From the NCBI GenBank assembly GCA_021836125.1, contig JAKBJF010000004.1, positions 1 through 51,851 of the forward strand: a stretch of DNA of 51,851 bases, written 5' to 3'. The translations under genes were made by a program, and so were the position numbers. A model generated the notes under the pieces. That model was given only the letters and a program-made list of their open reading frames with translations, did no database searches and was not told the origin of the DNA. Shown here piece by piece: positions 21,697 through 24,888 of the stretch. Within the stretch, counting starts at the first letter, position 1. The number at the start of each line of letters is the position of its first letter. Source of the DNA: Nanobdellota archaeon. Its GTDB lineage: Archaea > Nanobdellota > Nanobdellia > Parvarchaeales > Parvarchaeaceae.

Positions 21697-22230
21697 TTAG
21701 ATCGGCTCGATCATTCTTACTTCAACGCTTCTTGTCGGATAAATTTTGTTAAGCTTCTTTAGCAATCTTGTCTGTAACCTGCTTGTAAGTACTTCGATGA
21801 CCAAGTCCTTTAAAGTGGTCTTCTCAGCCTCCTTTTCTATTGCGTTCTTAAGCTCTTCATCGGCGAACTTCCTGTATCTGCGTTCGTTTTTGCCGACGAC
21901 GTAGATGACCTTAACAGCATATTTCTTGTCTGCGATAAGCACCGGCAGGACTACGTCCCTCTTTGAAACGTTGTGTCTGATCATCCTGCTTATAGACTCG
22001 CGTGATAGGACAGTTCCGTCCAGAGCAGCTTCGCACACGCCCGTGCCCGCTATTTTTGAAACCTTGAACATAAGTTTGTAGCCGAACTTCGGTTTCAGTT
22101 CTTTCAGTTCCGTCGCATTTAACTCAAGTTTTCTTCCCACTAAGTTCGAACTATTACCGAACATATCGCCGAGATGCATGTTATCGAACTCGGGCGAACT
22201 GACCTTGAACCATGCGTTAGATTCATTCAT
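21697..22230 (-). CDS. rps3ae: 30S ribosomal protein eS1 (S3Ae)
   Basis: The 177 residues match eS1: WFKVSSPEFDNMHLGDMFG at the start, then SSNLVGRKLELNATEL, FKVSKIAGTG and a C-terminal LKKLNKIYPTRSVEVRMIEPI. It is shorter than many archaeal S3Ae proteins (about 190-220 residues), mostly by trimming of the termini. It is a component of the small subunit platform near the mRNA exit. Its start overlaps the uS15 stop by 4 nt, making it the last gene of the kae1-bud32-rps15 operon. Confidence 0.93.
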   Translation of the reverse strand: MNESNAWFKVSSPEFDNMHLGDMFGNSSNLVGRKLELNATELKELKPKFGYKLMFKVSKIAGTGVCEAALDGTVLSRESISRMIRHNVSKRDVVLPVLIADKKYAVKVIYVVGKNERRYRKFADEELKNAIEKEAEKTTLKDLVIEVLTSRLQTRLLKKLNKIYPTRSVEVRMIEPI

Positions 22231-22652
22231 ATCTTGACCACCAGTCTTGCGCTCTCTATCGAGTATTCGTAATCCTTAGGCATTACGTCGTTTTCTTTGT
22301 AGTATTTTATGAGTTTTTTAATCCTATTCTCGAGTATGACGAAACTTCTCTTTGATTTTTTGTCTTTTTTCTCTTTTTGTAGGTGCATGTGCATCTTTAC
22401 GGCTTTTCTGTACAATGCGATAAGATCCTCAGGCAGCGGCTCCTTTACGCCTCTTTCAATAAGCAGTTTGCTGACGTTCTTCTTTATTAGTTCTCTTACC
22501 GAAGGTATGCCGTACTGGTCCCTTAAAACAAGACCTATCTGTGACTTTGTAAGCCCTTGATTATACTTGTTTGTTACAAGCCGCTCGACCTCTTCCGGCG
22601 AATATGTAAGCCAGTGTGGCACAAACTTATTTCTAACTTTGATCGTCTTCAT
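22227..22652 (-). CDS. rps15: 30S ribosomal protein uS15
   Basis: A 141-residue archaeal-type S15 with the characteristic N-terminal extension (VPHWLTYSPEEVERLVTNKY, then GLTKSQIGLVLRDQYGIPSVREL) and the core helices ending in RIKKLIKYYKEND. It binds the central domain of 16S rRNA. It overlaps bud32 upstream by 20 nt and eS1 downstream by 4 nt. Confidence 0.95.
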   Translation of the reverse strand: MKTIKVRNKFVPHWLTYSPEEVERLVTNKYNQGLTKSQIGLVLRDQYGIPSVRELIKKNVSKLLIERGVKEPLPEDLIALYRKAVKMHMHLQKEKKDKKSKRSFVILENRIKKLIKYYKENDVMPKDYEYSIESARLVVKI

Positions 22653-23235
22653 AATATCTTCTTCTACTTTCTATATCTTTAAGATGAGTCTCTATCCCTT
22701 TAAATTCTTTTCCATATTCGGTTTTATAAGACTCCAAAAACGCAGAGAACGCATCATCATAGACTTCCGTGTGTTTGGCCTTTAGCGCTTCCTTTACAAG
22801 GAATATGTCGGTAGCTTTGTCCTCCTCCCTGCTGGACATAAAACCGAGGCCGAAGTCTATGAGATACGGCACTCCGCCGACGACCATAATATTGGAAGTT
22901 GTAAGGTCGCCGTGTACTATGTCCTTTTTGTGCATTTTTGCGGTGGTCTTAGCGGCCTTTTTTAGGGTTTCTATTGAAAATTCGTCTTTAAGCAGACTGC
23001 CATTTAATCGTTCCATATAAAGCTGGTAGCCGTCTTCGGAAATCTTTATCGGTTGCGGTACGTTTATGCCAAAGGACACGCATTTTTTAAGGATGTTGAA
23101 TTCAGAGCGCGTTCTGCTTTTCCTAAGCGCAGAGTCTATCTCTTCTATTCTGTATCTTTTTTTCTCGCGGTCCTTTATAACGACATCTTTTGATTCGTAC
23201 ACCGTCGCTTCCGCGCCTCTTGCGATCGCTTTCAT
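22633..23235 (-). CDS. bud32: KEOPS kinase Bud32
   Basis: A 200-residue small protein kinase: N-terminal GAEATVY glycine-loop equivalent, catalytic loop HGDLTTSNIM, metal loop DFGLGFMS, and the Bud32-type extension with KAKHTEVYDDAFSAFLESYK. The usual C-terminal basic tail of Bud32 is here IESRRRYYEDDQS. Bud32 stimulates Kae1 in tRNA t6A synthesis by ATP hydrolysis. In many archaea kae1 and bud32 are fused. Here they are separate genes with a TGS-domain gene between them. Confidence 0.94.
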   Translation of the reverse strand: MKAIARGAEATVYESKDVVIKDREKKRYRIEEIDSALRKSRTRSEFNILKKCVSFGINVPQPIKISEDGYQLYMERLNGSLLKDEFSIETLKKAAKTTAKMHKKDIVHGDLTTSNIMVVGGVPYLIDFGLGFMSSREEDKATDIFLVKEALKAKHTEVYDDAFSAFLESYKTEYGKEFKGIETHLKDIESRRRYYEDDQS

Positions 23236-23924
23236 AGTTTTATGAATACCCTGTCCCCGTCCGACATTTTGTACTGCATGCTTACGTGCTGGCCCTGAAA
23301 TTTGACGTTTGTGCCGTAAACGATAGCGTAACTGTCCTTTTTTATGTCAAGTCTAAGTCTTTTCGCAAGGTCAAGCACGGAATCTCCCTTCATAAATGCC
23401 ATTGCGTCTTTGCTTTTTTCCGTGTACACCCTTATTACGCCGTAATCGTTAAGGCTTTTTTCGATGTCCGGTTTATCCGTTACAATTTGGAAATTATCCA
23501 GCGGCAGCTTCGTTTTAGTAAGGACTATTTCGCTCTGATTCACTATATCCTTGTAGCGTTCTGTGTTGTTGAGAGCGACTACCTGCACATGCATGTCGTT
23601 TATTACTGCTATACCGTATTTTATGCCTTCTATGGAAGTCAACTTTAGCATGCTACTTATTAAATCGCTGTCGTAACCTACAAGGCAGACTCTAGGCCAG
23701 TGTTTCCTTATAGATACAGCATGGTGCACTTGATGCGTTTTTGCTATCGTCTTCTTCAGCAGAGACATTCTCCTTTTTAGTGCAGCGAACTCCTTCTCCG
23801 TCCCTTTGTGTCTTGGGAGCATCTTGAACATTTCCTTGAGTATTTTCTCTTTCTCTAAAGGGTCTCTTTCTTTGCTGTAACGTTCCTGCAGCTTGTAATA
23901 TTCTATCGGCGCGTTTATTGGCAT
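23232..23924 (-). CDS. DRG-like TGS protein with degenerate (P-loop-less) G domain
   Basis: A 230-residue protein with three parts. Residues 1-60 match the N-terminal helical hairpin of DRG/Rbg GTPases (MLPRHKGTEKEFAALKRRMSLLKK). Residues 75-160 keep the first strand of a G domain, but the P-loop reads VGYDSDLISSMLKLT where active relatives have VGYPxVGKSSLLNxLT, so the lysine and serine are gone and most later G motifs are absent. Residues 162-230 are a TGS domain (VIRVYTEK ... KFQGQHVSMQYKMSDGDRVFIKL). It lies between kae1 (1-nt gap) and bud32 (4-nt overlap), pointing to a role with KEOPS or the ribosome. It is probably a pseudo-GTPase. Confidence 0.82.
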   Translation of the reverse strand: MPINAPIEYYKLQERYSKERDPLEKEKILKEMFKMLPRHKGTEKEFAALKRRMSLLKKTIAKTHQVHHAVSIRKHWPRVCLVGYDSDLISSMLKLTSIEGIKYGIAVINDMHVQVVALNNTERYKDIVNQSEIVLTKTKLPLDNFQIVTDKPDIEKSLNDYGVIRVYTEKSKDAMAFMKGDSVLDLAKRLRLDIKKDSYAIVYGTNVKFQGQHVSMQYKMSDGDRVFIKL

Positions 23925-23925
23925 A

Positions 23926-24888
23926 TCACCTGTACTTCACCTCGACCATGTCAGTCCTGAAATTTGGCCTTGGTTTTAGATCGTCTTGTATGTAATCACG
24001 CATCAGATAGCCGGTGTATGCTATCATAGCGCCATTGTCGCCGGATAGGTCCCGAGGTATCTGTTTGAAGTTGCAGCTGCGATCTTCGCACATTATTCTG
24101 CCCATGTCGTTCAATCTCTGGTTAGCGGCTACGCCACCAGTTACAACAAAGCTGTTTTTTCCGCAGTAAGCTATAGTTCTTTCACTTGCTTCTATTAACA
24201 TTGCAAAGGCAGTCTCCTGAAGAGAATAACACAGGTCTTCTTTGGCATAGTCTTTCACGGCTTTTGAAAGAAATGTGTCTATACCGCCGAAGCTCACGTC
24301 CATGCCTTTGATGGAATAGGGTATTTTGACGTAATTTTTGCCCTTTTTTGCAAGTTCTTCTATAACAGGTCCTGCCGGAAAAGGAAAACCCATATGCCTC
24401 CCGAATTTGTCAAGCAAGTTTCCAACGCCTATATCCTGTGTCTCTCCGAACACTCTGTACCTTCCGGATTCAAAAGTAAGGACTTGCGTGTTGCCGCCGC
24501 TGACATAAAGCATCACCGGGTCGTCAAAGCCAGTTGAACCGCGTGCTATTTCTATGTGTGCTATACAATGGTTGACGCCTATGAGCTTCTTGTTGAACTT
24601 AGATGAAAAGAATCTTGCTATTTGAGTACCGACACGTAGACAAGCAAGTATTCCCGGGCCTTGTGAAAATGCAAAGACGTCTATGTCTGATATCTTTATT
24701 CCTGCCTTGGCAAGGGCGTTTTTTATTATTGACGGGGCCAATTCATGATGGTGTTCTGCGGCTTCACGCGGTATTATCCCGCCCTTCTTTGGCTTGTAAG
24801 TGTCTCTTTCGTTTGCTATGACTTTCCCGTCCGCTACTATACCGGCGCCGAAAGTGTGCGCCGTACTCTCTATCCCGAGCACATACAT
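23926..24888 (-). CDS. kae1: tRNA N6-adenosine threonylcarbamoyltransferase Kae1 (KEOPS)
   Basis: A 320-residue ASKHA-fold enzyme: MYVLGIESTAHTFGAGIV at the start, metal ligands H107 and H111 in NHCIAHIE, VSGGNTQVL, and a C-terminal FVVTGGVAANQRLNDM with LSGDNGAMIAYTG. It transfers threonylcarbamoyl to A37 of ANN-decoding tRNAs. It is the first gene of an operon running kae1, TGS protein, bud32, uS15, eS1. A TATA-like box (ACTATAAAGT on this strand) lies about 26 nt before the ATG. Pcc1 and Cgi121 subunits are not in the window. Confidence 0.96.
   Translation of the reverse strand: MYVLGIESTAHTFGAGIVADGKVIANERDTYKPKKGGIIPREAAEHHHELAPSIIKNALAKAGIKISDIDVFAFSQGPGILACLRVGTQIARFFSSKFNKKLIGVNHCIAHIEIARGSTGFDDPVMLYVSGGNTQVLTFESGRYRVFGETQDIGVGNLLDKFGRHMGFPFPAGPVIEELAKKGKNYVKIPYSIKGMDVSFGGIDTFLSKAVKDYAKEDLCYSLQETAFAMLIEASERTIAYCGKNSFVVTGGVAANQRLNDMGRIMCEDRSCNFKQIPRDLSGDNGAMIAYTGYLMRDYIQDDLKPRPNFRTDMVEVKYR

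Follow-up and report, generated by a model that had tools for sequence, protein, structure and literature searches.

A probable DRG descendant with a lost nucleotide site, encoded between kae1 and bud32 in an order of DPANN archaea

Between kae1 and bud32 of the window, by which we mean the whole stretch of 51,851 nucleotides analysed here, lies a gene, tgs, for a protein of 230 residues that is almost certainly a descendant of the DRG GTPases in which the nucleotide site has been lost. The archaeal order to which the window belongs has kept the presumed ribosome-binding ends of the protein and removed the switch, a natural experiment that would separate binding from GTP hydrolysis. By analogy with the yeast DRG proteins, we propose that tgs, through its hairpin and TGS domain, serves as an adaptor that binds the ribosome or tRNA without switching, a reading to which we give a probability of about one half. 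The genes and the parts of the protein are as follows.

24888 to 23926, minus strand (23926..24888): kae1 (t6A synthesis), opening the minus-strand run; NCBIfam TIGR03722, 440 bits
23232..23924, minus strand: tgs, probable DRG-derived pseudo-GTPase of 230 aa (hairpin, G-domain remnant, TGS), ATG start
22633..23235, minus strand: bud32 (KEOPS kinase/ATPase); NCBIfam TIGR03724, 189 bits
22227..22652, minus strand: ribosomal protein S15 (rpS15)
21697..22230, minus strand: ribosomal protein S3Ae (rpS3Ae)
23742..23906, minus strand: N-terminal helical hairpin of tgs, residues 7–61, LPRHKGTEKEFAALKRRMSLLKK
23691..23705, minus strand: K-x-W-P-R motif, residues 74–78
23652..23678, minus strand: former P-loop site, residues 83–91, GYDSDLISS (residues 82–91 being VGYDSDLISS)
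23442..23693, minus strand: G-domain remnant, residues 78–161, from the predicted model
23235..23441, minus strand: TGS domain, residues 162–230, from Pfam and structure matches

The minus strand is thus read in the order kae1, tgs, bud32, rpS15, rpS3Ae, and the scores of kae1 and bud32 both exceed their NCBIfam cut-offs. A single T separates the stop codon of kae1 from the ATG of tgs (a spacing of 1 nt), while the TGA stop of tgs and the ATG of bud32 share 4 nt (ATGA). Downstream of bud32 the window continues with rpS15 and rpS3Ae, the genes overlapping. The preliminary description had placed tgs 1 nt after kae1 and in overlap with bud32, in an operon running on into ribosomal proteins; the junction sequences confirm the placement, and S15 and S3Ae the continuation. 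On the plus strand the reading across 23232–23924 is interrupted by stops. A tRNA scan returned nothing close to tgs, and a sigma-70/terminator scan, a type of scan unsuited to archaea, gave no clear excess over shuffles.

Is this arrangement peculiar to one assembly? The window genome belongs to an order of Parvarchaeota-type DPANN archaea, the family and the order being the same 32 genomes in our sample. tgs is encoded in 27 of these, including all eight that are at least 90% complete. A survey of kae1–TGS–bud32 synteny finds the two genes flanking tgs in every member that carries it (27/27); S15 and S3Ae then follow in 25 of the 27 loci, the remaining two being cut off by the end of the contig. 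The five genomes without tgs also have no kae1 match, so that tgs is most simply missing from five incomplete assemblies. In G013, a genome of the same species as the window, tgs and kae1 are both absent, that is, a stretch is missing.

How strictly is the gene maintained? In nine of ten close pairs, those with unsaturated dS, the dN/dS of tgs lies between 0.026 and 0.093, and in eight of nine scorable pairs it is no higher than that of bud32. Internal stops occur in none of the 27 copies. A pseudogene is excluded by these dN/dS values together with the conservation of tgs in 27 of 32 genomes; the gene is evidently kept under strong selection.

Which parts of the protein are held constant? Across the 27 sequences the mean column entropy is 0.83 bits for the hairpin (residues 1–66) and 1.09 bits for the TGS domain. 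It rises to 1.65 bits in the G remnant and to 2.17 bits at residues 85–92, the former P-loop, which are the most variable of the stretches tested. K74, W76, P77 and R78 are unchanged in all 27 copies of the order, and the WPR motif occurs in none of 61 relatives outside it. The conserved parts are chiefly the hairpin, the TGS domain and the new K-x-WPR motif beside the dead pocket; K-x-WPR may be a new contact surface. The proteins of the order are all basic (pI 9.4–9.8, n = 27), and by part the average pI is 10.1 for the hairpin, 9.1 for the TGS domain and 7.0 for the G remnant. The two most diverged copies are L028 (G002), whose TGS domain has lost the stretch KFQGQRV, and L029 (G031), in which the G remnant is shortened; the TGS surface is therefore not wholly constrained.

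What has been lost is equally consistent across the order. GK[ST] stands at the P-loop (G1) in none of the 27 copies, and neither G3 (DxPG) nor G4 (NKxD) is present in the 27-row alignment. In Pfam the window protein matches TGS only (residues 164–228; 23.2 bits, the cut-off being 22.2), and at E ≤ 1 it has no match to a GTPase family of Pfam or to anything in NCBIfam. Nor does it contain the S5D2L insert (Pfam MMR_HSR1_Xtn), or an OLA1/YchF-type N-terminal G domain with an intact GxxNVGKST. The sequence had at the outset been described as having an intact hairpin and TGS domain, a G domain cut to about 85 residues and VGYDSDLISS in the position of the P-loop. All of this stands: both ends are conserved, the remnant spans residues 78–161, and VGYDSDLISS is read at residues 82–91.

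From what does tgs descend? The family profile of the order and a profile built from 19 relatives match along the whole length (100% probability, E 3e-41), and in a search of the PDB with the family profile the four best matches are Rbg2, Rbg1 (two sequences) and human DRG1, at E 5e-7 to 1e-4. With the single window protein as query, phmmer found nothing solid in the PDB (best E 0.7). In a quick tree the copies of the order form one clade (SH-aLRT 99) on a long branch, whose placement among the relatives is left without resolution.

The AlphaFold2 model of the window protein, built from 42 sequences, has a mean pLDDT of 89.1 and a pTM of 0.66. It predicts three N-terminal helices, as expected of the DRG hairpin, and a G remnant consisting of β1, a short helix, β2–β3, a short helix, β4, β5 and α5. 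The Foldseek matches in the PDB at E ≤ 0.001 number five: three chains of Rbg1, Rbg2, and the DRG1 TGS domain. The VIA-align alignment to Rbg1, whose rows begin at model residue 20, has a Z of 10.5 and an rmsd of 12.6 Å over 202 residues, a poor whole-length superposition, so that the domain placement is not established as matching that of Rbg1. The TGS domains, on the other hand, superpose at 1.4–3.6 Å; against the NMR structure of the DRG1 TGS the domain of tgs gives a Z of 9.8 and an rmsd of 3.6 Å over 78 residues, as befits a TGS domain. OLA1/YchF come next after DRG in the fold list (Z 8.4–9.1). The suggested fold check of the G remnant had a divided outcome: taken alone it does match small GTPases, but at a Z of about 6–7, which could reflect a common arrangement, and it is therefore the sequence that identifies it as a G domain. 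In the model of a GKS-bearing relative from the Aenigmatarchaeota, α1 is followed by a loop of 16 residues (the switch I region) and β4 by a helix of 13 residues; the model of tgs has neither. The DRG-type origin first claimed for tgs is accordingly upheld by the profile, fold and tree searches, all of which tie it to DRG (Rbg1/Rbg2).

How do the DRG GTPases themselves compare? Yeast Rbg1/Rbg2, human DRG1/2 and archaeal DRG have the order of parts in common with tgs: hairpin/HTH, G, TGS. They are about 365–380 residues long as against 230; tgs is without G1, G3, G4 and the S5D2L insert, its switch I is shortened, and it has the additional K-x-WPR. OLA1/YchF share with tgs an Obg-type G domain and a TGS domain, but are without the N-terminal hairpin. 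Retention of the G fold with loss of its motifs is also found in the pseudoGTPases, such as degenerate septins and the p190RhoGAP domains, and the available part of one paper describes such loss as a repeated event in evolution (PMC10731463). Those proteins, unlike tgs, are eukaryotic, have unrelated flanking domains and lie outside ribosome/tRNA-modification operons.

If the nucleotide site was lost, when in the history of the family did this occur? Profile matches are found throughout the class, in 321 of 378 genomes and in 159 of the 191 of high quality. We read 61 relatives, comprising 59 loci of the class and two of Aenigmatarchaeota. Most are 257–311 residues long and five are 368–379; S5D2L exceeds its cut-off in all three long relatives scanned (L181, L184, L185), and is not in the two shorter archaeal relatives scanned (L154, L070). 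The reduced DRG-like proteins of the class (mostly 260–310 aa) have the N-terminal signature MPxN..PEY..AE...PKHKG and the TGS domain, as does tgs; unlike tgs, they mostly keep GK[ST] and mostly do not lie beside KEOPS genes. In aligned columns 60 of the 61 have GK[ST], the usual P-loop of the class being GxxNSGKS, whereas one of the 61 retains a strict DxPG and 15 show a G4-like motif. Since these relatives mostly keep GxxNSGKS but have lost or altered DxxG and NKxD, the P-loop would be the final loss in a decay that proceeded by steps. On this sample the switch motifs and the S5D2L insert appear to have been lost or altered before the P-loop; a graded decay in the relatives precedes the removal of the switch in the order. 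Within the window's order the P-loop was, as far as the tree of these sequences indicates, lost once (clade support 99).

The preliminary description would have been weakened by homologues restoring GK[ST] at this site. Such homologues are common outside the order, where 63 of 67 distinct relatives carry the motif (64 of 68 rows in aligned columns, L162 and L221 being the same gene), and there are none among the 27 copies within it. Because of this division, the loss is lineage-specific and old, and not an error.

Does the order possess another DRG? A TGS search finds tgs, a protein of about 380–450 residues and ThrRS-sized proteins. The proteins of about 380 residues, read in eight genomes of the order, are separate and carry an intact GxTNVGKST; we take them to be YchF/OLA1-like. 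G015 yields one TGS match of about 440 residues. S5D2L exceeds its cut-off in none of the 32 genomes, and when a canonical DRG of the class was the query, all 16 matches were to the TGS end of tgs alone. A fourth TGS match in G010 (C2:4587) was rejected as a DRG, the long ORF there reading as a nucleotidyltransferase. A separate full-length DRG combined with poor conservation of tgs, which would have told against the original view, is not what the order presents: no full-length DRG was found in it by the TGS, S5D2L or canonical-DRG searches, and tgs is in 27 of 32 genomes. These searches returned no member of the DRG family from the order other than tgs. As the window genome is 66% complete, this absence rests on its relatives.

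Is a DRG-like gene among KEOPS genes confined to this order? In two other families of the class, f9 and f6, it is not. In f9 a GKS-bearing relative stands in the run kae1–sua5–tgs with gaps of 7–8 nt (G086), and another lies downstream of kae1–sua5 (G059). The remaining f9 loci read polX–sua5–tgs–bud32 with kae1 about 4 kb upstream (G039), polX–sua5–tgs with kae1 further upstream (G066) and polX–tgs–bud32 (G080). In f6 the order is tgs–bud32–S15–RecJ-like–S3Ae, with kae1 27 kb off (G036). The names Sua5, PolX and RecJ at these loci are presumptive. Over the 61 loci, clustering places bud32 nearby at three, Sua5 at three and kae1 at one, all in f6 and f9, a count that would miss neighbours too diverged to cluster. 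The gene-order link to t6A is real in three families but is not general; it may expose a connection between a DRG-type protein and t6A synthesis. At four loci, L211 (G086), L212 (G039), L213 (G066) and L215 (G059), a Sua5-like gene precedes a GKS-bearing DRG-like gene immediately or at a short distance, and kae1 is in the same cluster, so that a t6A cluster holds a DRG-like GTPase.

What might a DRG without its switch do? In the cryo-EM structure of yeast Rbg2, as set out in the available part of the report (PMC8040806), the TGS domain touches h5/h15 of the 18S rRNA in the small subunit, the G domain and HTH touch the stalk base, the sarcin–ricin loop and H89, while S5D2L is in contact with the tRNA in the A site. 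If the two basic ends of tgs keep their Rbg2 roles, tgs would be a constitutive clamp on the ribosome, or on tRNA bound there, with no GTP on/off switch. We favour a constitutive clamp because tgs keeps the two end modules and discards the switch and the insert. Such a clamp might steady the A-site tRNA on slow or stalled ribosomes and be released by competition with elongation factors rather than by hydrolysis. If tgs is transcribed together with kae1, bud32, S15 and S3Ae, its amount would follow that of ribosomes and of t6A tRNA. Counting against the adaptor are the superposition on Rbg1 at 12.6 Å, the Z below 7 of the G remnant taken alone, an operon that fits a t6A role equally well, and the requirement of yeast Rbg1 for its GTPase activity, stated in the accessible portion of PMC3510508. 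According to the same portion, the TGS of Rbg1 is needed for recruitment to polysomes, via Tma46 (PMC3510508); since the yeast domain reaches polysomes through this partner, we can only infer that bare tgs binds ribosomes. As a family, DRG proteins are conserved across archaea and eukaryotes. Yeast Rbg1 requires its GTPase (PMC3510508, same portion); the DRG relative of this order dispenses with the nucleotide site.

The strongest rival to the ribosome/tRNA adaptor is a role in KEOPS, a minority hypothesis drawn from gene order. Cgi121 is the tRNA recruiter of KEOPS. tgs could be an accessory KEOPS/t6A protein that uses its hairpin and TGS domain to recruit tRNA or the ribosome to Kae1–Bud32 in place of Cgi121; that is unlikely, though to be taken seriously, as is the corollary that the nucleotide site was dropped because Bud32 supplies the ATPase action. 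The constant position between kae1 and bud32 (27/27) favours this, as do kae1–sua5–tgs, sua5–tgs–bud32 and tgs–bud32–S15 in the two other families (G086, G039, G036) and the finding of Cgi121, by its Pfam model, in none of the 32 genomes of the order. Yet the same model finds it in none of 141 genomes of the class, including those in which the relative sits elsewhere. The absence therefore does not single out tgs, and a replacement of Cgi121 specific to the order is weakened. (The control search missed Sulfolobus, agreeing with the absence described in the available text of PMC2948915.) Moreover, bud32 is near 3 and kae1 near 1 of 61 relatives, none outside f6 and f9; Pcc1 is present in 20 of 32 order genomes; and operons are frequently shared by translation genes of all kinds. 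tgs shares a gene run with kae1 and bud32 but has no detectable relation in sequence to the KEOPS subunits (Kae1, Bud32, Pcc1, Cgi121, Pcc2/Gon7), with no Pfam or NCBIfam match to the first four at E ≤ 1. Rather unlikely, in our estimate, is the more specific proposal of a pseudo-GTPase turned dedicated t6A factor, docking Kae1–Bud32 to tRNA or the ribosome in archaea without Cgi121; if true, it would physically join modification of the anticodon loop to translation. In the open-access literature we found no account of a DRG-type pseudo-GTPase, or of a GTPase partner of KEOPS, in archaea, and no paper that treats TGS domain, KEOPS and archaea together.

Other explanations look to the rest of the operon and to the pocket. 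The run into S15 and S3Ae (25 of 27 loci, the other two at contig ends) would suit a factor in ribosome assembly or dormancy, a DRG-derived placeholder at the subunit interface during maturation of the small subunit. Nog1-like chains of pre-60S particles are indeed among the structural neighbours below DRG, but at a Z of about 6–7, in the range of common arrangements, and neither an assembly defect nor a binding site is known; we consider this doubtful. That the remodelled pocket can still take up a nucleotide or some other small ligand, making tgs a ligand-gated factor, is very unlikely: the β core and the end of the VGY strand are retained beside an invariant K-x-WPR, but of the stretches tested the P-loop columns vary most (2.17 bits), switch I is shortened and the other G motifs are gone. 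Finally, start and stop codons that abut or overlap those of both neighbours might lock even a decaying gene into a translationally coupled operon. With a dN/dS of 0.026–0.093, no internal stops in 27 copies and a new invariant motif, such decay is scarcely credible.

Two further observations concern relatives outside the order. In family f26 (L177, L217, L218, L219) the P-loop has been lost independently and the switch I region is shortened: where GxxNSGKS is expected, one genome has GTNGSDKT and three have SPKS (GVANSPKS/GVLGSPKS), while two other f26 genomes (G108, G134) retain GKS. Bacteria encode DRG-like hairpin–G–TGS proteins of about 330 residues with GxPNxGKS (at least L076, L081, L084, L093, L100, L110, L122 and L124), which share the N-terminal signature and the TGS domain with tgs. 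The carriers include planctomycetes, Armatimonadetes, a Thermotoga MAG, WOR-3 and deltaproteobacteria, among others, in contrast to the available text of a review that places DRGs in archaea and eukaryotes and not in bacteria (PMC8629797).
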